Translations under genes and position numbers: made by a program
Assembly: GCF_030816965.1 (NCBI RefSeq)
Contig: NZ_JAUSYQ010000002.1
Location: 10,096,001 to 10,160,000, forward strand
Length of the DNA stretch: 64,000 nucleotides
Direction: 5' to 3'
Source of the DNA: Streptomyces canus
GTDB taxonomy: Bacteria > Actinomycetota > Actinomycetes > Streptomycetales > Streptomycetaceae
In this document: positions 39,724 through 51,607 of the stretch, piece by piece
How positions within the stretch are numbered: position 1 is the stretch's first letter
Layout of the letters: every line of letters begins with the position of its first letter
The notes under the pieces: model-generated
Database searches by the model: none
Seen by the model: the letters and a program-made list of their open reading frames with translations, nothing else
What the model was told of the DNA's origin: nothing

Positions 39724-42700
39724 TCACGCGGCGTCGAGCCCGCATTCGGCCCAGATGACCTTGCCCTCCGGCAGGTAGCGCGTGCCCCAGCTCTGCGAGA
39801 GCTGCGCGACGAGGAAGAGCCCGCGGCCGCCCTCGTCGGTACTGGCCGCTCGGCGCAGGTGCGGGGCGGTGTTGCTGGCGTCGGAGACCTCACAGATCAG
39901 GGTCCGGCCGTAGAGCAGCCGTACCCGGATGGGCTCGGCGCCGTGCCGGATGGCGTTGGTGATCAGCTCGCTGAGTATCAGCTCCGCGGCGAACGCGGCC
40001 TCGTCGAGTCCCCGGTCGGACAGCCACCGCATGGCGGACGCCCGGACCTCGCCGACGAGGGCCGGGTCGGCGGACATCTCCCAGTCGGCGATCCGCTCGG
40101 GGTCCAGGGCGTGGACACGGGCGACGAGCAGGGCGATGTCGTCGTGCGGGTGTGCGGGTGCGACGGTGTCCAGGACCGCCTGGCAGGTCTCCTCGGGGGC
40201 GCGCTCGGGGCGGGCCAGGGCCTCGCGCAGCTGCTCCAGGACTACGTCGACGTCACGGTGCCGGTCCTCGATGAGCCCGTCGGTGTACATGACCAGCTGG
40301 CTGCCCGCGGGGAGGTCGACCTCGGCGGCGTCGAAGGGCAGGCCTCCGAGGCCGAGCGGAGGCCCGGCGGGGAGCTCGGGGTAGGTCACGGTGCCGTCGG
40401 GGTGGACGAGCGCGGGCGGCGGGTGCCCGGCGCGGGCCATCAGGCATCGCTGCGAGGTCGGGTCGTAGATGGCGTAGAGGCAGGTCGCGCCGATGACGCC
40501 GGGGCCCTTGCCGTCCGGGTCCTCCCGGTCCAGGCGGCCCACGAGGTTGTCCAGGTGGGTGAGGACCTCGTCCGGCGGGAAGTCGAGCTCGGCGAAGCTG
40601 CGGGCGGCGGTGCGGAGGCGGCCCATGGTGGCGGCGGAGAGCATGCCGTGGCCGACGACGTCGCCGACGAGGAGCCCGACGCGGGAGCCGGACAGGGGGA
40701 TGACGTCATACCAGTCGCCGCCCACGTCGGACTCGGCGGGCAGGTAGCGATGGGCGACCTCGACGGCGTCCTGGTCGGGCAGGCCGTGTGGGAGGAGCCG
40801 GCGCTGGAGGGCCAGGACCATGCCGCGTTCGTGGGTGTAGCGCCGGGCGTTGTCGATGGACAGGGCGGCGCGGGAGGCGAGTTCCTGGGCCAGGGAGCGG
40901 TCGTCGTCCCCGAAGGAGGCGCCGGATCGGTAGAAGCTGGCGATGCCGAGGACGACACCGCGGGCGAGCAGCGGGACCGCGATGAGGGAGTGGACGTGGG
41001 TCAGCAGGCGCGCGGTGTGCTCGGGGTCCTGGGCGAGCCAGCCGGCGGCGGCCTTGAGGTCTGGTTCCAGCACGGCCTCGCCGCTGGTGAGACAGCGCAA
41101 CTGGGGCGCGGTCGGGCCGAAGTCGATGCGCTCGCCGGGCGGGGTGAAGGGCAGGCCCTCGCGGATGCCGTGGAGGACCGTACGGCGCAGGTCGGCGAGG
41201 GGATCGGCGGACTCCTCGCCGCGCAGTACGGCGTCGGGGAGGTCGATGGTGACGAAGTCGGCCAGTCCGGGGACCGCGGTCTCGGCCAGTTCCTCGGCGG
41301 TGCGGCGCACATCCAGGGTGGTGCCGATGCGGCTACTGGCCTCGGACAGCAGCTCCAGACGCCGACGGGCGGCCAGAGCGTAGGCCCCGACGTGCGGCTC
41401 CCCCAGCATCACCAGCGCCCGGGCCGGGAACGCCGCCTCGGACTGCTCATCCGCCGGGCCGCGGCTTCCGCGGGCCGTGAGGGGCGTGGCGGGCTCGGAA
41501 GCGCTCTGGCCCCCGCGGGCCGTGAGGGGCGTGGCGGGCTCGGTGGCGCCTTGACTTCTGTCGGTCGTGTGGGGCTCGGTGGCGCCTTGACTTCTGTCGG
41601 TCGTGTGGGGCTCGGTGGCGCCTTGACTTCTGTCGGTCGTGTTGGGCTCGGTGGCGCCTTGACTTCTGTCGGCCGTGTTGGGCTCGGTGGCGCCCTGACT
41701 TTTGCCGGCCATGCCGGGCCCGGCGGCCCGGTGGTGACCACCGGCCGCGTCCGGCTCGGCGGAACCCCGGCCACTGTCCCCCGCGACCGGGCCGACGGCG
41801 CGCCCGTCGCCTGCCGCCGATGGGGTTGCACCGGGCTCGGCGGGCGCGTGCGGTCCGGCCGGGCCTGCATCTCCGTCGGCGGTGATGACCGGGCCGGGGA
41901 CCGCGGCGAGGTGGCCGGGCGGCAGGATGATCGACGGGCGCGCGGCCGAGAGCGGAGCGGTGAGGGCGGGCAGCTCGTCCGTCTGGTGGGGTACGGCAAG
42001 CCGCTGTCCCACCAGGGCGCCCGGCAGCACGGCCTCGACGGCGATGCCCCGCACCCCGGAGCTGCTCGTCACCGGGCGGCTCATCAGGGTGACCCGTCGG
42101 CCGTCGGGAAGGGTCACCTCCACGGCACTCCGCTGCGCTCCGGAGATCAGCTCGGCGGCCTTCTCCCTCAGGATCGCCTCGTCACGGGAACGGAACTCGT
42201 TCGCCAGCGCGTCCATCGCCACGCCGCGATGCGGACCGTCGGTTCCGGCCCCGGCGGCCAGGTACGTCCGCAACAGGGCGCCCTCGTGCGCGGAACTCTG
42301 CGCCAGCAGCCGCCGTTCAATGCCCTCCGCCGCTCTGCGGATGGCGACGCCCAGGACGGGCTGCTCGAAACCGCGCGGATAGCCGAGGCACAGGACGCCT
42401 TCGATGCGTCCGCTGAGCGGGTCCCGGACGGGCAGCGCGACGCAGGCGCTTTGCTGGGAGCGCTCCGCGAAGTGCTCGGCGCCGTAGACGCGGATGAGCC
42501 GCCGCTCCGCAAGGGCCAGCCCGATGCCGTTGGTGCCGGCGACCTGCTCGGCGAACACGAACCCGGGCTCGACCTGGATGGCCGGCAGGCTCCTGGCCAT
42601 TGACGGGTCCCCGAATCGGCGCAGCAGCACTGTCCCGTTCGCGTCGGCGACGGAGATGTTGACCTGGCTTCCGGCGAACGTGGCCTGCAGTCGGTCGAGC

Positions 42701-43017
42701 ACCGGCACAGCCGCCGCGACGATACGACCGCCCGGGTCGAAATCCCCCCGGTAGGGCAGGTCGAGCGTGTCGGGCGACAGGCCGAGGGAGCGGCAGCGCT
42801 GCCACGAGTTCAGGATGGACGTCCGTACGCCCTCCGCGACCGGCTCGCCCTGCAGGAACAGCTCACGCGGACTGGCGGGCCCCGTGCCGTCCGTCGCACG
42901 TCCCGCAGGCTTGCGTTCCTCGCCGGACCGAACCACGCTTCGCCTCACTTGCGCCCGCGACAATTCGCTGCTCGGAAGAGAGTCTGGCATTGATGAGGAT
43001 ACGGGCATTACGGTCAC
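39724..43017 (-). CDS. GAF/SpoIIE/HATPase regulatory phosphatase
   Basis: A 1097-residue cytoplasmic signalling protein. Residues about 50-270 resemble the N-terminal sensor of AcoR/DhaR-type activators (NSWQRCRSLGLSP, FVFAEQVAGTNGIGLAL). Residues 300-370 may be another small sensor. A low-complexity repeat tract follows (about 430-510). A second GAF domain spans about 520-690 (RIGTTLDVRRTAEELA ... SLIAVPLLARG). The PP2C/SpoIIE phosphatase follows (VGGDWYDVIPL, LLVGDVVGHGMLSA, VMYTDGLIEDR, HPHDDIALLV). A histidine-kinase-like ATPase ends it (ELITNAIRHGA, DEGGRGLFLV). Such proteins control anti-sigma-factor partners in Streptomyces stress responses. Confidence 0.92.
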   Translation of the reverse strand: MTVMPVSSSMPDSLPSSELSRAQVRRSVVRSGEERKPAGRATDGTGPASPRELFLQGEPVAEGVRTSILNSWQRCRSLGLSPDTLDLPYRGDFDPGGRIVAAAVPVLDRLQATFAGSQVNISVADANGTVLLRRFGDPSMARSLPAIQVEPGFVFAEQVAGTNGIGLALAERRLIRVYGAEHFAERSQQSACVALPVRDPLSGRIEGVLCLGYPRGFEQPVLGVAIRRAAEGIERRLLAQSSAHEGALLRTYLAAGAGTDGPHRGVAMDALANEFRSRDEAILREKAAELISGAQRSAVEVTLPDGRRVTLMSRPVTSSSGVRGIAVEAVLPGALVGQRLAVPHQTDELPALTAPLSAARPSIILPPGHLAAVPGPVITADGDAGPAGPHAPAEPGATPSAAGDGRAVGPVAGDSGRGSAEPDAAGGHHRAAGPGMAGKSQGATEPNTADRSQGATEPNTTDRSQGATEPHTTDRSQGATEPHTTDRSQGATEPATPLTARGGQSASEPATPLTARGSRGPADEQSEAAFPARALVMLGEPHVGAYALAARRRLELLSEASSRIGTTLDVRRTAEELAETAVPGLADFVTIDLPDAVLRGEESADPLADLRRTVLHGIREGLPFTPPGERIDFGPTAPQLRCLTSGEAVLEPDLKAAAGWLAQDPEHTARLLTHVHSLIAVPLLARGVVLGIASFYRSGASFGDDDRSLAQELASRAALSIDNARRYTHERGMVLALQRRLLPHGLPDQDAVEVAHRYLPAESDVGGDWYDVIPLSGSRVGLLVGDVVGHGMLSAATMGRLRTAARSFAELDFPPDEVLTHLDNLVGRLDREDPDGKGPGVIGATCLYAIYDPTSQRCLMARAGHPPPALVHPDGTVTYPELPAGPPLGLGGLPFDAAEVDLPAGSQLVMYTDGLIEDRHRDVDVVLEQLREALARPERAPEETCQAVLDTVAPAHPHDDIALLVARVHALDPERIADWEMSADPALVGEVRASAMRWLSDRGLDEAAFAAELILSELITNAIRHGAEPIRVRLLYGRTLICEVSDASNTAPHLRRAASTDEGGRGLFLVAQLSQSWGTRYLPEGKVIWAECGLDAA
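41470..41716 (-). repeat. In-frame tandem repeats in the phosphatase gene
   Basis: Five adjacent 36-bp units at 41537-41716 encode about five copies of QGATEPxTxDRS; the last is degenerate. Next to them, a 45-bp period unit at 41470-41543 occurs twice and encodes EPATPLTARG plus five more residues. Both keep frame. They fall in the linker between the sensor part and the second GAF domain. Copy-number change would lengthen or shorten the linker without a frameshift. Confidence 0.85.
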
Positions 43018-43825: not shown

Positions 43826-43912
43826 ATTTTTGATTCTAGACTCAAGATCGAGACGTTGCGCCCTCGCGTGTTCGATTTAACGTTCGATAACGTGGTGGGG
43901 GAGGTGAGCACG

Positions 43913-44185
43913 ATGAGGACGCGGGCGACGGCGGACGGACAGGGCGTGGTGATGCACGTGCGCTGTGCGGACCGGCTGCCGGAGGAGACATACAGGCAGG
44001 TGCTGGAGGGAGCTGTCCGGGCTGTCGCCGGTGGTGCAGGCGCTGCCCCCGACCGCGGCGCTGGTGGATCTGCGCGGAGCGCTGCGCTACCACGGCGTCG
44101 ATGCCCGCAGGCTGGGGGAGGTCCTGCGGATCAGGACGATCTCCCGCCTCTGCGTCGACGTCCGCATCGGCATCGGCCCCTCCAG
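43913..44185 (+). pseudogene. Y-family DNA polymerase, N-terminal fragment
   Basis: From ATG 43913 (GGGGAGG 9 bases upstream) the frame reads VVMHVRCADRLPEETYRQVLEG, in two pieces, then needs a one-base correction near 44010 to continue as LSGLSPVVQALPPTAALVD, LRGALRYHGVDARRLGEVLR and VDVRIGIGPS. This is the palm start of an actinobacterial DinB/ImuB-like lesion-bypass polymerase. It stops matching at CTCCAG, 44180-44185. The rest of the gene resumes in frame at 50864, so a 6.7 kb insertion split it. A TCGAAC-N4-TTTTGA sequence at 43818-43833 faintly resembles a LexA box. Confidence 0.78.
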
Positions 44186-44360
44186 AAGCCGACAGGTTCG
44201 CGGATTCCTGAGGGCCCAAGACAGCGAACTGGCTGGCCACTTGAGCTCGAGACGGCGATCGTCCAGCCGGTTGAGGCAGCAGGGACTCGTACGGCCTGTG
44301 CTCGGGAGGGTGTGAAGGAGGCCGCGTGAGGCTTCGCCAGGGCGAAGGGCTCGGGAGCTC

Positions 44361-44450
44361 ATGGAGGTGATCGAGCGGTTTACTCCGCTCGCCCAGTCGT
44401 TGGCACCGTCGGCGGCCGTTGCCCAGGTAGGCGGCGCTCCAACGGCGCGT
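44361..44450 (+). pseudogene. Possible second Y-family polymerase scrap
   Basis: About 30 codons read MEVIERFTPLAQSLAP then SAAVAQVGGA, which resembles the same N-terminal segment of ImuB/DinB-like proteins (pattern: VxPVVEALPPDxAxADVxGAL). It lies just inside the left end of the insertion and breaks off before the AraC fragment. It is short, so the call is weak. Confidence 0.3.
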
Positions 44451-44800
44451 TGGCGGGCGGCAAGGGCCGCAGGGTCACGTACGCACGGTTCGTGGACTCC
44501 CTGGAGCTGCACTTCCGGGAACTGCACCGGGCTGCGGACTATGCCGGGCTGCTCGGCTGTTCGGTTCGTACCCTCAGCCGCGCGGCCCGGGACGCCACCG
44601 GCAAGGGGGTACGTGAGGTCATCGACGAGCGGCGCCTCCTCGAAGCCCGGCGCCTGCTGGGAGGCGCCTGGTGGGATGCCCGGGCTGTGGCCGTCCATCT
44701 CGGGTTCACCGATCCCGCGAACTTCGGCCGCTTCTTCCGTGGCCACACCGGTCTCACCCCGGCCGCCTTCGCGGCCCGCGAAGCCAGGACCGGCATGTGA
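44450..44800 (+). pseudogene. AraC-family regulator, C-terminal DNA-binding fragment
   Basis: A 116-residue frame carries both AraC helix-turn-helix units: ADYAGLLGCSVRTLSRAARD and DERRLLEARRLLGG, then AVAVHLGFTDPANFGRFFRG and LTPAAFAAR. The N-terminal sensor domain that full-length relatives have is missing, and the sequence before it belongs to other debris. The fragment might still bind DNA without a sensor. It faces the NTF2-like and oxidoreductase genes. Confidence 0.68.
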
Positions 44801-44963
44801 GGCGGGCGCGTGGGCGCGGCACAAGCCCGCATCCCCACGGCCTTGATCGCGTCCGGGGCGGGGGCCGGGCCGGGGTCGGCCGCCTTCTTGACGGCCTTGC
44901 TCCTTGATCGGTCCTTTCGCTGAGCATGCTGGTACCCGGCGGCGTTGCTTCGGGTTCTCCCGG

Positions 44964-45395
44964 TCAGGAAGCGATCTTTTCCGTCACGGTCTGGGAGAAC
45001 GCCCAGTTGGAGTGCGCGATGCGCCACTGGTTGTCGATGAGGCGGTAACCGTGGGTGGCGTTCCAGGCGCGCAGCTGCTTGTCCTTGCCGTTCTCGTCGA
45101 GAACGTAGGTGTTCAGGTTGTACGCCAGGACAGCGAAGTCACCGCTGTCGCTGACGTGAACCTGCGGGTTGAGGTACTCGCTGCGCACGATGTGCGGGTT
45201 GGAGTAGATGGAGTCGATCCATGCGATGACCTTGTCCCGGCCGACCACGATGTTCTCGAGGATCGGGTCGAAATAGCTGACCTCGTCGGCGAACGCGTCG
45301 AGGTAGCCGCCGTTGTCGCCGACGCTCCACCGCTCGTTGAAGGACTTCTCCAGTTCCAGGATGGTCTTGCTGATTTCTTCCTTGTTGACGCCCAT
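44964..45395 (-). CDS. NTF2-like / SnoaL-type protein
   Basis: A 143-residue small alpha+beta protein of the nuclear-transport-factor-2 fold: ILELEKSFNERWSVGDNGGYLDAF (seen in pieces), VSYFDPILENIVVGRDKV, and a C-terminal sheet HGYRLIDNQWRIAHSNWAFS. Such proteins are small-molecule isomerases, hydrolases or binding proteins, often next to oxidoreductases. GAGA lies upstream of ATG 45395. The GC content looks lower and codon use is less extreme than nearby, as in EEISKTILELEKSF. The enzyme activity is not known. Confidence 0.82.
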   Translation of the reverse strand: MGVNKEEISKTILELEKSFNERWSVGDNGGYLDAFADEVSYFDPILENIVVGRDKVIAWIDSIYSNPHIVRSEYLNPQVHVSDSGDFAVLAYNLNTYVLDENGKDKQLRAWNATHGYRLIDNQWRIAHSNWAFSQTVTEKIAS

Positions 45396-45457
45396 GACAG
45401 TCTCTTTTCGTTCTTGCCGCCGCAGCCGGCTCCGGTCGGCGCGGATGGGTGTGTTTC

Positions 45458-45660
45458 TCAGTCGTCGAGCAGCACCACGTGCTTGCCGGCGTGGTGCCGG
45501 ACTCGACGTCGGCCTGGGCATCGCGAACCTGCTCCAGGCCGTGGTAGACCTTCGCGACCGGGGCCTTGAGCCGCCCGGCGGCGATGGCCTGCAGTTGCTG
45601 CTGGAACACCTGCGCGGGCAGGTCGGTGGCCCCGCCCGCTGCGGCCCGGGGCGAGGTGTT
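45458..45660 (-). pseudogene. Quinone oxidoreductase / zinc-type dehydrogenase tail
   Basis: The minus strand reads VFQQQLQAIAAGRLKAP, VAKVYHGLEQVRDAQADVES and, one frame over, GKHVVLLDD before the stop at 45458. This is the end of a medium-chain quinone reductase (AEIFxxQLxxIAAGR ... GLEEVxxAHxxLE ... GKHVVxLDD). All of the NADPH-binding domain is missing. It is 62 bases upstream of the NTF2-like gene. Confidence 0.62.
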
Positions 45661-45926
45661 CGCCGCAGCACCTCTCGATCCTCTGTCGACATCCGGCGAA
45701 TCGCTCAGGCAGTTGCGGACATCTGGTTGTCAATGGGGGACACCGGGTGAAGCCCCCGCGATCGCAGGGCTTCGAGCCCCCTCATGCCGGCTGGGGAAGC
45801 GCTGAGCGCGCGCCCCGTCACCCGTTCGGTTCGGCCGGAACGGTTGTGGAGTGGTTCGGCCAGGAGGGATCGGCCCGAGGCGTCCTGGTCAGGCCGCCGG
45901 GCGGCGGGGGAGGGGACGCGGGCCTG

Positions 45927-46835
45927 TCACCGGTGCTGTGCGGTGCGCAGCTCGTCGGTGTACCGGGCGAGGGCGTCTTCGGCTTGGGGGACGGGGCCGA
46001 ACAGCTGCTCCTGGCGGCGGGGGTCGGCGACGTAGCGGCCGGTTTCGAACCAGCGGAACATCGCGGCCAGGTCCTTGATCAGGGGCATGAAGCGGCCGGC
46101 GACGGCTCCTGCGGCGCGGGCGACGGCGGACGGGATGGCCACCACCTTGATCTTCTTCCCGGCCCGGCGGCCCATCAGGTCGGCCATCTCGCGCATGCTG
46201 ACCGGACGGTCCCAGCCGATGTCGATCCGCTCACCGGCCTCGGCGTCGGCGTCGACGGCGGCTGCCAGGTAGGCCGCGAGGTCGGAGGTGTGGACGAAGG
46301 TCAGCGGGACGGTGGCCTTGCCGATCCACACCATGCGGCCCTTGTCGACAGGGTCGCCCGCCATGCTCGCGACCTGGTCGAGGAACGCCCCAGGTCGCAG
46401 TGCGACGAAGGGGACGCCGAGCTGTTCGAGCTTGTCCTCGGCGAGCTTCTTGTGCCAGAAGTGCGGGACCTGGGGCGTCTGGTCGCTGGTGAGGATGCTG
46501 GTCAGGACGAACCGCCGGATGCCGGTGCGGTGGGCGGCCTCGGCGAGGTTGGCGTTGCCGATGGTGTCGATGTCGTGGGCGTTCTTGCCGCCGCGGGTGT
46601 AGCCGGCGGCGGTGGTGATGACGGCGTCGGCGCCGTTCATGGCGGCGACGAGCGAGTCGAGGTCGAGCATGTCGCCGCGGGCGATCTCGACACCCCGGCT
46701 TTCCAGCTTGCTGGCGTCGGTGGTCGGCCGGACCAGGGCGCGGACGTTCTTGCCGCGCCCCAGCAGTTCGTCGACGACCTTGCCGCCGAGGGAGCCGGTC
46801 GCGCCGACGACGAGGACGGGCAGGGTGGTGGTCAT
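45927..46835 (-). CDS. NmrA-type NAD(P)-binding protein (atypical SDR)
   Basis: A 302-residue Rossmann-fold protein. The nucleotide site is VVGATGSLGGKVVDELL; GVEIARGDMLDLDSLVAAM, ADAVITTAAGYT and FVLTSILTS follow. It has no YxxxK active site in the classical place, which fits the NmrA/epimerase-like atypical group, acting as redox sensors or quinone reductases. A MTTTLP start at 46835 is chosen over one 18 bases upstream. Together with its neighbours it suggests an electrophile or quinone stress response. Confidence 0.85.
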   Translation of the reverse strand: MTTTLPVLVVGATGSLGGKVVDELLGRGKNVRALVRPTTDASKLESRGVEIARGDMLDLDSLVAAMNGADAVITTAAGYTRGGKNAHDIDTIGNANLAEAAHRTGIRRFVLTSILTSDQTPQVPHFWHKKLAEDKLEQLGVPFVALRPGAFLDQVASMAGDPVDKGRMVWIGKATVPLTFVHTSDLAAYLAAAVDADAEAGERIDIGWDRPVSMREMADLMGRRAGKKIKVVAIPSAVARAAGAVAGRFMPLIKDLAAMFRWFETGRYVADPRRQEQLFGPVPQAEDALARYTDELRTAQHR

Positions 46836-47259
46836 GGGGGTCTCACTTTCCATCAGGTCAGGAGTGGGGGATCAGGTGGCGCAGACGGGGGCGCCGTCGG
46901 CCCGGGTCGCTCAAGGGGCGGGCCTGTGATGGGCGGATCTGCGGCACGGGGCCACCGCCGGTCGGCAGGAGCTTGCAGGGGTTGACGGTGAACGGGACGC
47001 GGGGGATGCCGCCGTCCTCAGCCTGGCTGGCGAAGGGGAGGGGCTCGACATCCCCTTGGGAGGAGTGTTGCCCTTTCCCTGCCCCTTCCCCCGGACGAGT
47101 TCCGCCTGCCCGCACCGGGACAGCTCGCGCTTGCCCCTGACGCTGAGGACCCGCTCAGCCCGTTCTCCCTGACGTACCGGGGTGAGCGGGGCACCGCGCC
47201 GCATCCGCCGGCTCGGCTCACCGGACTTGTTCCGAAACCGGGGTGCAATCCGAGGGGAG
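46836..47259. other. No recognisable gene
   Basis: About 420 bases between the NmrA-type and MarR genes. One minus frame of 85 codons (VPFTVNPCKLLPTGGGPVP) is open but unknown. Possible debris of a deleted gene. Confidence 0.4.
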
Positions 47260-47739
47260 TTACTCAGACTCTTCCCGTGGCAGCGCGCGGCTGTTGATCG
47301 CGTCGGCGATGGCGTAGGCCGTGCGGACGAAGGACTCCGCCTGCTGCGCCGAGAGGTCCCGTGCGGAGGTCTCCTCCAGGGCCCGCCACATGGCTGCCAG
47401 GGGCTCGCGCATCGCCCGGCCCTTGTCGGTGAGGTGGACGACCATGACGCGCCGGTCATGTGCGGCCGGCTCACGGATGAGCAGGCCGGCGTCCTGCATG
47501 CGGCGAAGGGACTTGGAGACGGTGGAGTGGTCCAGGCCGACGCTGTCGAGCAGCTCGGACTGGGTCTGGCCGTCCCGGTCCAGGAGTTGCATCAGCAGCA
47601 GTTCCTGTCCCAGATGCAGGTCTATCTCGCGGAGCATGGCGGCGGCGTAGGCGCGGTGGGCGCGGGCGAGTTGGAAGATCGCGTAGCTCATCGGTCCTGC
47701 GCCGGCCGTCGTGGGCATGCGGGGTTCGGGGATGGGCAT
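47260..47739 (-). CDS. MarR-family transcriptional regulator
   Basis: A 159-residue winged-helix repressor: GQELLLMQLLDRDGQTQSEL, LDHSTVSKSLRRMQDAGLL (recognition helix), and wing REPAAHDRRVMVVHLTDKGRAM. GAGGAA precedes ATG 47739. MarR proteins respond to phenolics, quinones or oxidants, which fits the flanking old-yellow-enzyme tail and NmrA-type gene. The operator was not identified. Confidence 0.88.
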   Translation of the reverse strand: MPIPEPRMPTTAGAGPMSYAIFQLARAHRAYAAAMLREIDLHLGQELLLMQLLDRDGQTQSELLDSVGLDHSTVSKSLRRMQDAGLLIREPAAHDRRVMVVHLTDKGRAMREPLAAMWRALEETSARDLSAQQAESFVRTAYAIADAINSRALPREESE

Positions 47740-47750
47740 GGTTCGGTTCC

Positions 47751-47892
47751 TCAGACGGTGTGGGTGGGGTAGTCGGTGTAGCCGGCCACTCCGCCGCCGT
47801 AGAAGGTCGCCGGGTCGGGGGTGTTCAGCGGCGCACCGGCGCGGAGCCGCTCGACCAGGTCCGGGTTGGCGGTCAGGACGGGATTGCCCGCA
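47751..47892 (-). pseudogene. Old yellow enzyme (alkene reductase) C-terminal fragment
   Basis: The minus strand reads [18 protein letters not shown] then [20 protein letters not shown] and stops at 47751, 12 bases before the MarR start. This is the end of the NADH:flavin oxidoreductase family (SNPDLVERL ... PLN ... TFYGGGxxGYTDYP). The FMN barrel is missing. It would have been cotranscribed with the MarR gene. Confidence 0.75.
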
Positions 47893-48014
47893 CCTGCCCA
47901 GCGTCGCTGACCTGCTGGACCGTGGCCGCCTGGTCGAGCGGACAGGCAGTGACGCCGGTGACGAGCTTGCCGGCTCTGGGAGCTTGCGACTCAAGCCGCT
48001 CACTGGGTGGGGAG

Positions 48015-48857
48015 TCAGCCGAAGAACTTTTCCAGTTCAGCTACCAGGGCCTCCGGCTGCTCCTCCGCGACGAAGTGGCCGCTGTCCTCGATGCCGCTGT
48101 AACTGATGTCCTTGGCCTTGCCCTCCATCATTGGCCGCATGAAGTCGGCGCCCTGATTGGCGATAGCCAAGACGGGCATCTCCAGCGAGGCGTACGAGTC
48201 GTTGTCGGCGACATCCTGGTGGAAGGTACGGAATACGCCGAAGCCCGCGGTCAGCGCCTCGGGTGTGTCGTAGGCCTGGGCGTAGATGGCCCGGCTCTCC
48301 TCACTGATCCGTTCCGGGTGGAGCGCGAGGTGTTCGGCCGACCAGTCGATCACGTGCCGGAACCGCCCCGCGAGAAGCTTGGCGGGCAGTCCCTCGACCT
48401 GGCTCAACGGGTATATCCACAGGTTCAGATCACCGGGCCTGGGGAACGGCTTGGCGAAGTCCTGGAAGACCTGCGAGAAGGGTGCGCCTTCCCACAGGGC
48501 GAGCTTCTTGGTGGCCTGCGGATAGTTGGCGGCGAAGCTGTAGGCGACCATCGCACCGATGTCACCACCGGCAATGTTCACCTGCTCGTAGCCGAGGCCG
48601 CGGACCAGTTCGTAGACGTCCTTCGCCATGTTCTTCTTGTCGTAGCCGCCCTCGGGCTTGTCCGACTCTCCCTGACCGCGGTAGTCCACGGCGATGACGC
48701 GGAAATGCTCGGCCAAGGGGGTCATGATCTTGTGGAGGCCGTGCCAGGTGCGCGGAAACCCGTCCATGAGAACCAGCGGCTCGCCTTCGCCGCCGATGAC
48801 GTAGTGGAGCCGGGTGCCGTTCACGTCGGCATAACGGTCTTCGAATCCTTCAAGCAT
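48015..48857 (-). CDS. Alpha/beta hydrolase, epoxide-hydrolase-like
   Basis: A 280-residue hydrolase. The nucleophile elbow is GGDIGA, an aspartate nucleophile as in epoxide or haloalkane hydrolases. The oxyanion-region HGFP motif reads MDGFPRTW, so its histidine is replaced. The general base is the histidine in EDSGHFVAEEQP. DYRGQGESDKP is the usual strand-4 motif. No signal peptide. ATG 48857 follows AGGAGT (seen as actcct on the plus strand). A role in removing reactive epoxides would fit the island. Confidence 0.86.
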   Translation of the reverse strand: MLEGFEDRYADVNGTRLHYVIGGEGEPLVLMDGFPRTWHGLHKIMTPLAEHFRVIAVDYRGQGESDKPEGGYDKKNMAKDVYELVRGLGYEQVNIAGGDIGAMVAYSFAANYPQATKKLALWEGAPFSQVFQDFAKPFPRPGDLNLWIYPLSQVEGLPAKLLAGRFRHVIDWSAEHLALHPERISEESRAIYAQAYDTPEALTAGFGVFRTFHQDVADNDSYASLEMPVLAIANQGADFMRPMMEGKAKDISYSGIEDSGHFVAEEQPEALVAELEKFFG

Positions 48858-48921
48858 GTGTAACTCCTACTCGGGTTGATCATTTCTGCGGTGGGAGCTC
48901 CCGCTGTGCGGGGCGGCACAT

Positions 48922-48974
48922 GCGGGAGGGGTGCCACCGAGATCCAACCGTTGATGCGCCAACACCCCTCCCGC
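48922..48974. repeat. Long-stem inverted repeat upstream of the hydrolase
   Basis: GCGGGAGGGGTG at 48922-48933 pairs perfectly with CACCCCTCCCGC at 48963-48974 across a 29-base loop. It lies 65-117 bases upstream of the hydrolase start and close to the IS701 scrap. It may be a leader hairpin or a transposon end. Confidence 0.6.
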
Positions 48975-49082
48975 CTGGTCAGGGCTTGGCGCACTGGAGG
49001 CAGGGTTTTGGTCAGGTTCGTATGTCGGTGGCGTGTCCGGTCGAGAGGCTGTGTCATTGACCGGTGTGTGACACCTGAAGTC

Positions 49083-49260
49083 CGGTGCGACTGGAGGACA
49101 TCGCGGCGATGTGTTCGAGCCGCTCGCACGGGCGGATCAGCGTCGGCGGAGCGGGGGTGCACCTACGGGGCCTACTGCTGGACGGGCAGTGGAAAGAGGT
49201 GGAGCGCCCGCTCGCGGTGTCGCTGACCGGCGGAAGCCGCGGGCGACGTCACGCAGTTGC
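49083..49260 (+). pseudogene. IS701-type transposase N-terminal scrap
   Basis: A plus frame reads FEPLARADQRR, then one frame over HLRGLLLDGQWKEVERPLAV. This matches the IS701-family N-terminus (FxxLARSDQRRW ... YLxGLLLDGRRKSVEPMA) with a frameshift between the two pieces. Nothing of the catalytic domain remains. Confidence 0.5.
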
Positions 49261-49355
49261 TGCCGCTGCCGGACAAGGCCCCGGCCGTGGCCGGCGCCGT
49301 CGGCCCCGTAATCACCCACCGCCACGTCCACGCCTAGTTCGGTGAGCTGACTTTG

Positions 49356-49775
49356 TCAGGACCTCTTGAGCCAGCGTTGCAGCGCCTCGGGCACGTTCGT
49401 GGGATGCGAGCTGAAGCTCAAGCGGATGTCAGGCTGGAGGTCGATGAGCACGTTGACGATCCGTTCGAACAGGACGGTGTACTCCGGGACATTCTTGATG
49501 CCGCCGCCGATGAGCACCACCCCGAACGAGTGTCCGTCGAACAGTCGGCGCAGTTCGGCCTCAGCCTCGTCGGGGTCCAGGCTGACATAGCCCGCCTCAC
49601 CGTCGATGCCTGTGGCTTGGAGCGCAGCCCAGCTGCGCTCCCTCATCGCCACCAGCTCCTCGAGCGTCGCAACCCCCGGCGGAAAATCGTCCGGCGAAAG
49701 CGCATCAGAGGTGATGCCGAGGGTCAGCACGCGTTGATTGATCGGAGGCTTCACTTGGGAGTTCTTGTGGGACAT
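49356..49775 (-). CDS. Hypothetical protein
   Basis: A 139-residue soluble protein with a possible Rossmann-like core (SFGVVLIGGGIKNVPEYTVLFE, then ILIDLQPDIRLSFSSHPTN-like VLIDLQPDIRLSFSSHP). No family is recognised, but alternating strands and helices look like a real protein. The ATG at 49775 follows TGGAGGAGCGA. The upstream region has two related dyads at 49864-49912, so it may be regulated on its own. Confidence 0.6.
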   Translation of the reverse strand: MSHKNSQVKPPINQRVLTLGITSDALSPDDFPPGVATLEELVAMRERSWAALQATGIDGEAGYVSLDPDEAEAELRRLFDGHSFGVVLIGGGIKNVPEYTVLFERIVNVLIDLQPDIRLSFSSHPTNVPEALQRWLKRS

Positions 49776-49863
49776 GGGGTCGCTCCTCCAAGGCAATATG
49801 GCCCCCTCTGATGGCACACCCATGCGGGTCTCCACAGTTCTGCGGGGGAAGTTCAAGAGAAAG

Positions 49864-49912
49864 TGTGGCTGGCCACATGAATAACGTAGCAGCAATCGTG
49901 TGGCTAGCCAAG
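49864..49912. promoter_or_regulatory. Tandem dyads upstream of the 49775 gene
   Basis: TGTGGC-TG-GCCACA at 49864-49877 is a perfect dyad. A variant, TGTGGCTAGCCAAG, lies at 49899-49912, exactly 35 bp further on. Their position, 90-140 bases upstream of a minus-strand start, suits an operator pair. The regulator is unknown; MarR and TetR types are candidates. Confidence 0.55.
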
Positions 49913-50047
49913 TATTTGCGGACGCGAGGACGGCGGTGGCCACCTCGGGACGCTTCGAGGTGCGCCGACCATTTGCGTGGCCGACCACGTAAACGTGCGG
50001 GGTGACCGCCAGGGTGCCGGTACCGCAGATCACCCAGGATCGTGTCA

Positions 50048-50745
50048 TCACCGTGGGCAAGAACAAGGGCCAGTCAGCCTCACCAGGCACAACTCGGTTG
50101 CCCGCACCCCGGAGATGTAGGCGGCCTTGGCCATCACGTAGTTACGGACCGCGACCGGATGCTTGCGCGCCGAGCCCAGTTCCTGGCGCCACGCGGCGAA
50201 GAACGCCGTCATCTCCGCGCGCGAGGGCGGGATCCGCAGCCCGAAGTCCCCCGGTGCCGGGGCCGGTTGAAGGCGTCGACTGGTGACTCCACCACCGCCC
50301 CGAACCGCCGCCGGATCTCCCCGGCGTACCGCTGTTCGAGGAACGCGAAGTACAGGTCGATGCCGGTGATCTTCTTGCGGACCGTGGTGTGACCGCGCTT
50401 GCCCGCCCCGGCGAAGTACTGGTCCAGCTGCCGCGGCGACAGCTCCCAGGGCAGGACGTCGTAGAAGGTGCACACCTCGATCATCGGCTGCACCAGGCGG
50501 TTCAGCGTCGTCGGCGCCAGCCCCGCCACATCCCGCGCCCAGCAGTACTCCGCGAGCGTGTCCTGATAGAGGGCCTGCTCCGCCTCCCGAGACGACGGGT
50601 GAACACCGCGGCGCTGAGGGTCAGGACGTCGGCCAGGCCTTCCTCCTGCCCGGGAGGCCGGCCTGGCGAGCCGCGCCCGCTGATCAGCGAGAAGCGGCGA
50701 GTTTCGGAATCCGCCACAGACATGCAAATTACGCAAGAAACTCCC
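50048..50745 (-). pseudogene. Tyrosine recombinase, frameshifted and truncated
   Basis: The minus strand reads EAEQALYQDTLAEYCWARDV, LAPTTLNRLVQPMIEVCTFY, ELSPRQLDQYFAG, then, after a shift near 50255, DFGLRIPPSRAEMTAFFAAW and SGVRATELCLVRL. This is a Streptomyces-type site-specific recombinase. It reaches the first catalytic arginine (VRATEL) but the second half, with HxxR and the tyrosine, is gone; the 5' end is also frameshifted. It lies at the right end of the 6.7 kb insert, where a transposition or integration gene would be expected. Confidence 0.72.
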
Positions 50746-50863
50746 GGAATCTGCGAGTTACTGGCAGAACTTCACCCTTTCGAGTGGACGTCACTGCCGA
50801 TTCGCCAGCCAGCATGAACAGGTCGAACGCCCGGTAGCTGGATGCGGTCGAACCCGTCGGTAC

Positions 50864-51607
50864 TCCAGTTTCACGATCGCCGCCACAGCCTCCGGCCAAG
50901 TCCCCCTGCCGGGCGGGATCCTGGCGATCGCCCCCGAGGACGTGACCGGCTGGCTGGGACCGCTGTCGGTCGAGGCCCTGCACGGCATCGGTCCGCGGCA
51001 GGCGGCCGTGCTGCGCGACTACGGCATCCACTGCGCGGGCCTGCTCGCCACGGTGCCGCCCGCGACCGTGCAGCGCCTGCTGGGCGGGAAGGCCGGCCGC
51101 CTGGCCGCCGACCGGGCCCGCGGCATCGACCCCCGCCCCGTCGTCCCCCGCGCCCTGCCCGCCACGGCGAGCGTGCACCACCGCTTCGATGAGCACGCCC
51201 TGGACGGCGCCGTCGTCCGCGCCGCCCTGCTCGACCTGGTCGTCCGGCTCGGCACCCGGCTGCGCGGTCGTGGCCAGGTGGCCCGCGCGCTGACCTTGAC
51301 CCTGAAGTTCGCCGGCGGCAGCAACTGGGAGAAGACCCGCCGCCTGACGGCGCCCTCGGCTCATGAGGACGACCTGCGCCGGCTCGCCTACCAGCTGATG
51401 GATGCCGCCGGCCTGCAGCGCGGCCGCCTGACCGGAATCGCCCTGAAGGGCGAAGACCTCACCGACGCCGACCAGGTCGCCTGGCAGCTGTCCCTCGATG
51501 ACGCCCGCGAAGCCCGCCTCGCCGCCGAAACCGCCGTCGACCGCGTGCGCGACAGGTTCGGGCCGGGCGTCATCGGCCCGGCCGCGGTCTTCCGCCGCGC
51601 CTCATGA
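50864..51607 (+). pseudogene. Y-family DNA polymerase, C-terminal fragment
   Basis: From the junction at 50864 the frame reads FTIAATASGQV, ILAIAPEDVTGWLGPLSVEA, LHGIGPRQAAVLRDYGIH and then the little-finger part (HHRFDEHALDGAVVRAAL, ALTLTLKFAGGSNWEKTRR). It ends at 51607. It lacks a start of its own and continues in frame from the fragment at 43.9-44.2 kb. The thumb helix-hairpin-helix (LHGIG) and little finger are intact, so it is separated, not decayed. Confidence 0.8.

Follow-up and report, generated by a model that had tools for sequence, protein, structure and literature searches.

According to the title of Murphy and Lofdahl (1984), Tn554 transposes without duplicating its target. Here we describe an insertion in Streptomyces canus that is very probably a decayed Tn554-like tyrosine-recombinase transposon, belonging to an actinobacterial family with a recurrent target in polymerase genes. 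It occupies positions 44185-50870 of a stretch of 64,000 nucleotides, called the window (10,096,001-10,160,000 of contig C2, which is 10.51 Mb long in a two-contig assembly of 10.66 Mb), where it splits a Y-family DNA polymerase gene. The comparison genomes in all genus-level searches were those of Streptomyces.

Tn554-related recombinase pairs of Actinobacteria, Streptomyces included, were catalogued by Van Houdt et al. (2012, PMC3414803); some of them lack TnpC, and the section on the actinobacterial pairs gives no termini, empty sites or target genes. A TnpA subgroup is named in PMC8138268. According to PMC10214605, the SEs of Gammaproteobacteria have four genes (intA, tfp, intB, srap), among them those for an ordinary and a large tyrosine recombinase. 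Imperfect inverted ends surround a 6-bp spacer at the joint of their circle, and the element is inserted together with 6 bp copied from the left flank of the donor. For Tn554-related elements the same authors mention a comparable footprint of 6 bp. RIT elements (recombinases in trio) have adjacent tyrosine recombinase genes and inverted ends, the archetype having three recombinases of 315-410 residues.

The family described here shares adjacent genes for a short and an unusually long tyrosine recombinase with Tn554 and the actinobacterial pairs (PMC3414803). Adjacent recombinase genes and inverted ends are also shared with RIT elements, unlike which it has a short recombinase, a helix-turn-helix (HTH) protein and a long recombinase-like protein. 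As in Tn554, there is a preferred site and no target duplication, the latter seen at one empty site and at four gap-free joined sites. In contrast to Tn554, whose third protein is TnpC, an HTH_26 protein lies between the recombinases in relatives; the targets here are conserved codons of protein genes, e.g. of Y-family polymerases. The recombinase sizes resemble those of SEs, as would the end geometry at the circle joint, deduced here from sequence, and the proposed insertion of the element plus 6 bp. The gene order differs from that of SEs, and the spacer is nearly constant whatever the flank.

The interrupted polymerase gene and its empty site

The sequence-only reading of this stretch had claimed that a mobile element split a Y-family polymerase gene. 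Both pieces are seen, and homologues in relatives are uninterrupted.

43914..44184, plus strand: N-terminal part of the split Y-family polymerase gene, with 93.7% identity to its unbroken counterpart at locus L003
44185..50870, unstranded: inserted element, 6,686 bp, exactly absent from L003; its right boundary at 50870 recurs in two loci of genome G274
50871..51607, plus strand: C-terminal piece of the same gene, IMS_C 2.3e-13, 93% identical to L003

With the C-terminal piece as query, 30 loci were found in 246 genomes, the window locus among them. The gene is uninterrupted across the site in all 24 readable loci out of the 29 of relatives (L004, L015, L023, L030 and L031 being unreadable there), so that the search for an intact locus proposed with the sequence-only reading was successful. 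The closest empty locus is L003 in genome G140 (93% identity). In it, the homology to window positions 43900-44184 directly adjoins the homology from 50871, with zero bases between. The empty site reads GGCCCCTCCA|TCACGATC (GIGPSITIAAT) and the occupied site GGCCCCTCCA|GAAGCCGAC...GTCGGTACTCCAGTT|TCACGATC. The insert lies between CTCCA and TCACG, no host base is duplicated, and cutting out 44185-50870 gives the exact G140 layout.

These results shift the boundaries of 44186-50862 proposed earlier. The hexamer CTCCAG does stand at both junctions (44180-44185 and 50863-50868). Rejoining the gene by removing one copy of it and the interior leaves an extra codon (GIGPS-SF-TIAAT), which occurs in none of the 24 readable relatives. 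Nor is the repeat a target duplication, as the right copy belongs to the end of the element and the left host bases are only CTCCA. Since no base is duplicated, a tyrosine recombinase poses no puzzle, and the question of the responsible enzyme raised earlier is accounted for by Tn554-like tyrosine recombinases, which make no target duplication.

The N-terminal piece runs to ..GIGPS and one base into the codon that follows. It has a frameshift of 1 nt near 44009, which is not present in the corresponding gene of Streptomyces sp. LUP47B, and alone it gave no Pfam match. On reading, the stretch ahead of the GIGPS motif is short in this polymerase group (43914-44184, L003), and VDLRGA stands at what we take to be the position of the second acidic motif of Y-family enzymes. 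Judging by sequence, members of the group may lack catalytic polymerase activity even in uninterrupted form.

Ends of the element

The two ends are asymmetric, and each is conserved in copies elsewhere.

44185..44200, plus strand: left end (long-recombinase side), GAAGCCGACAGGTTCG, the same in LUP47B, G011 and S. fuscichromogenes
50849..50870, plus strand: right end (short-recombinase side), CGAACCCGTCGGTACTCCAGTT, with nine exact CGAACCCGTCGNNNCTCCASTT matches in 392 genomes

A GAAACC.. variant of the left end occurs in G054 and in both G019 copies. The right CTCCAG is part of a conserved end GAACCCG...CTCCAGTT, which is found elsewhere with unrelated flanks. CTCCAG was also considered as a shared crossover core; this was dropped, CTCCAGTT being the element's own end in unrelated contexts. 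The two G274 loci match the window precisely up to 50870 and diverge after it, and the two copies in G019, 99.95% identical over 4.2 kb, have different flanks, which places the ends at GAAACCAGCGGGTTCG and GGAACCCGCGTGGACTCCAGTT. Thus the second check proposed earlier, for ends that recur elsewhere, also gave a positive answer. The inverted ends noticed in the window, CCGACAGGTTCG (44189-44200) against CGAACCCGTCGG (50849-50860), do match at 11 of 12 positions; when pairs of 22-mers were drawn at random from the window, 22 of 20,000 were equally good.

The search with CGAACCCGTCGNNNCTCCASTT in the 392 genomes gave, besides the nine exact matches (window included), nine with one mismatch. A backward control pattern also gave nine over the same genomes, so the one-mismatch matches are near chance level and the exact ones alone were used. 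The recombinase pair was not recognisable in the three one-mismatch loci fetched out of the nine (G016, G024, G369). Because the right-end patterns required most of that end, its constancy was judged on loci selected by recombinase: a 114-residue piece of the broken recombinase had matches in 63 of 295 genomes, and 20 regions were fetched. Fourteen of these fit the strict pattern and the other six share GAACCCG...CTCCA. The three bases 3' of CTCCA vary (GTT, CTT, ATT, ATA, CTA and a few others).

A recurrent target in polymerase genes

The family was followed in 22 distinct copies, made up of the nine exact end matches, eight further loci, four plasmid loci and G011. Plasmid loci L137 and L138, within the 22, belong to other subfamilies; loci L067-L081, likewise of other subfamilies, are outside them. 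A Y-family polymerase is present at the flank or flanks read in 9 of the 22, a preferred target site of the Tn554 type: the window, LUP47B, G054, G040, S. olivochromogenes, S. albicerus, CB00316, the NBC_01445 plasmid and G011. Five of the nine show one polymerase flank only. The assignments are by IMS_C in G054 (4e-25), CB00316 (2e-17) and S. olivochromogenes (9.5e-15), by IMS_HHH in G040 (1.5e-5), and by tblastn on the NBC_01445 plasmid (1.2e-38) and in S. albicerus (2.7e-9, a short frameshifted piece without family match). The N-terminal piece of G054 matched IMS at 0.011, below the cut-off, and those of CB00316, LUP47B and the window gave no family match in the profile scan.

Six copies could be read with both of their ends, namely those in the window, LUP47B, G054, CB00316, S. 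fuscichromogenes and WAC00288, the last with one mismatch at each end. Four of these lie in polymerase genes and all four at the same codon, the cut falling after the first base of codon X in GxxP[S/T/N]-X. The four joined sites are in frame and gap-free against intact homologues (GIGPS-I-TIAAT, GISPS-I-TIAAT, AIAPN-R-MLASM and AGAGPT-R-SIAAM). LUP47B has both junctions in the corresponding polymerase, with flanks about 89-91% identical to the window. In G011 the left junction lies in a polymerase (..GIGPT|) and an uninterrupted paralogue, L024, is kept; the right end was not found. Of the non-polymerase copies, G156, G238 and G152 have no recognisable left end, and the G274 pair are short right-end remnants.

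The S. fuscichromogenes copy (L110) was examined as a polymerase target and rejected: about seven residues fit (VGLGPT plus one base), with no polymerase match. At its oriented position 2214 the 20 bases left of the element are polymerase-site-like and those farther out are not. This could be either a secondary site or a rearrangement. No relative of the element was found in a scan of viral contigs. Among literature titles and abstract openings, which left most subscription journals uncovered, no Y-family polymerase target was reported for such elements.

Mobility genes

It had been noted from the sequence that the tyrosine recombinase at the right end is broken, and the alignment bears this out.

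50075..50723, minus strand: short tyrosine recombinase remnant with two 1-nt deletions, cut after ..RATELC, aligned with LUP47B, S. sporangiiformans and G040

In relatives the mobility genes are three: one for a short tyrosine recombinase of about 390-420 residues, one for an HTH protein of about 110, and one for a long recombinase-like protein with open frames of about 660-780. L074, for example, encodes a 391-residue Phage_integrase protein, a 114-residue HTH_26 protein and a 662-residue protein whose Phage_integrase match is below threshold. The adjacent short and long recombinase genes typical of Tn554 are therefore seen in relatives, the long protein with weak integrase matches; the window keeps only the truncated short one. 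All 11 loci tested in relatives have the start motif of the HTH protein, the frame of L064 not being maintained beyond it; the window lacks the motif. In the host genome the short recombinase gave a single match, and the long recombinase-like protein gave only a 39-residue match elsewhere. The short recombinase of LUP47B is frameshifted too.

With the short recombinase, tblastn matched 182 of 72,556 plasmid records, four of which were read. In plasmid records of Streptomyces and Rhodococcus the annotated order is an integrase, then an HTH regulator, then an integrase or a hypothetical protein. A tblastn match, a 37% identical integrase, lies on pNOCA01 of Nocardioides JS614, a plasmid listed as Tn554-like in PMC3414803; it may be the gene of that listing.

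As judged from its genes, the window copy is dead, the short recombinase being broken, the HTH and long genes gone and the cargo partly broken. With its mobility genes broken or gone, self-movement of this copy is very unlikely.

Cargo genes

A cargo of redox genes had been described from the sequence. Such genes are indeed present in the window.

44450..44797, plus strand: AraC-type HTH protein piece, HTH_18 4.5e-18
44964..45395, minus strand: SnoaL-like protein, SnoaL_3 2.1e-9
45927..46853, minus strand: NmrA-family protein, 308 residues, NmrA 7.6e-35, with a 99% copy elsewhere in the same genome
47260..47742, minus strand: MarR-family regulator, MarR_2 1.2e-11
47751..48003, minus strand: flavin-oxidoreductase-like gene remnant, named by reading; fuller counterpart in a 353-residue frame, L129:14740-15801
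48015..48857, minus strand: alpha/beta hydrolase, 280 residues, Abhydrolase_1 3.7e-19
49356..49775, minus strand: small conserved protein of unassigned function, conserved in G068, G182 and G238; Radical_SAM match below threshold only

They do not define the element, as LUP47B has the same insertion with other genes: its interior (abhydrolase, TetR, polyketide-cyclase-like) is unlike window 44314-50074. The G011 cargo is 95.8% identical to that of LUP47B. A second, more intact NmrA-MarR copy (98-99% identity) lies in the same genome about 29 kb past the right end of the element, at L129:13491-17965, i.e. 13.5-18 kb past the right end of the window, and is followed by 353- and 309-residue oxidoreductase-like frames. 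Redox clusters collinear with this one are also present in further genomes, among them G238 and G024. The cluster is thus seen in places where no element ends were recognised beside it, and in G182 part of it lies beside a degraded right end.

Several palindrome-like GTGGCTnGCCA sites lie at 49860-49990, upstream of the gene at 49356-49775, and are conserved in G182 and G068; from their sequence they are perhaps operator sites. Outside the element, a 36-bp tandem repeat at 41536-41759 (4.8 copies, 96% matches) runs in frame within a 1097-residue minus-strand open frame, 39724-43017, as repeated RSQGATEPxTTD units.

Proposed mechanism and alternative origins

Sequence comparison fixes precisely where the element begins and ends and shows that its target is not duplicated. 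The asymmetric ends are conserved and have inverted arms, and copies recur at one codon of Y-family polymerase genes. Such features would fit an element that forms a circle, at whose junction two imperfect arms would flank a 6-bp spacer (GAACCCGTCGGTACT-CCAGTT-GAAGCCGACAGGTTC in the window). The recombinases would then insert the circle, spacer included, at the preferred target. The arms around CCAGTT pair at 10 of 15 positions in the window and at 9-11 in seven other two-ended copies; L073, where the end was taken one base off, has 7. In copies with different flanks the spacer is CCA followed by three semi-variable bases, which would argue against an origin from the donor flank. After insertion, the window copy would have lost its recombinase genes, and its interior would have been replaced by the redox gene cluster, itself decaying.

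Several points weigh against this account. In the other 13 of the 22 copies, tblastn with eight polymerases found none at the flanks read; these 13 include S. fuscichromogenes and WAC00288, which belong to the six copies with both ends identified. The right junction of G040 is one base off phase. The case for movement, circle and excision is built from sequence comparison throughout, and the likeness to Tn554 from gene layout, the lack of target duplication and the preferred site.

An ordinary integrase-driven island (an integrative and mobilizable element, an integrative and conjugative element or a prophage remnant), recombined through an attB/attP identity core CTCCA, is improbable. The host site and the element end do have CTCCA in common, and a tyrosine recombinase lies at one end. 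Simple exchange at an identity core predicts CTCCATCACG at the right junction, whereas CTCCAGTTTCACG is seen. To the left of the element, the other copies in polymerases show different bases (CTTCCA, CCAACC, CCACCC), and the gene set of relatives comprises a short recombinase, an HTH protein and a long recombinase-like protein.

Marginally less probable still is the view that most of the insertions in polymerases descend from a single old event and have since diverged, with no repeated targeting. The window and LUP47B copies may well be inherited, being in the same gene with both flanks about 89-91% identical. However, copies lie in clearly different polymerases (GIGPS-I-TIAAT, AIAPN-R-MLASM, AGAGPT-R-SIAAM), and close relatives of the window polymerase are uninterrupted. 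Further, G011 has a cargo 95.8% like that of LUP47B beside a polymerase flank far less alike, with an uninterrupted paralogue kept, and one copy is on a plasmid.

A DDE-type transposon with CTCCAG as a 6-bp target duplication, suggested by that hexamer at both junctions and by the inverted ends, is very improbable given an empty site CTCCA|TCACG with zero duplicated bases, CTCCAGTT staying with the element in other contexts, relatives that encode tyrosine recombinases, and no DDE transposase noticed, although no search was aimed at one.

Other subfamilies and target choice

The Tn554-like family may be divided by target. In other subfamilies, the right flank starts with GGCA[C/G]GGT in L074, L075 and L077, and the left flank of L074 and L075 reads as the start of an RRQLR-type gene. 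L072 and L080 have another target region in common, GGDEF-like by eye only. A QPAGTRSADL coding sequence follows right ends, one of them degraded, in two genomes, at L102 (10795) and L066 (about 190); it is perhaps a third target type.

In a tree of 22 short recombinases (L107 and L112 without usable frame; the window and LUP47B copies left out), five polymerase-labelled rows and two RRQLR rows split at a branch with 100/99 support. Fifteen rows are unlabelled, and some stand within the polymerase group (L063 next to L064, L065 next to L066); 48 of 500 label shuffles separated as well, so the tree is weak support. We tentatively propose, at somewhat less than even confidence, that one lineage has specialised on a codon nearly invariant among translesion (Y-family) polymerase genes and that its spread inactivates accessory polymerases, with sister lineages specialised on other conserved coding motifs (RRQLR-type start; perhaps GGDEF-like). 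The sixth two-ended copy, outside a polymerase, and the weak tree control lower the confidence in such specialisation.

Implications

For an actinobacterial paired-recombinase group known from protein clustering (PMC3414803), precise termini, an unoccupied site and a target that recurs are now available. This opens the choice of target, and what becomes of the 6-bp spacer, to direct test. If the tentative proposal of specialised lineages holds, the nearly fixed spacer would mean that the circle keeps its own end, unlike the donor footprint of SEs. The case also illustrates how insertion repeatedly disrupts accessory Y-family polymerase genes of Streptomyces.

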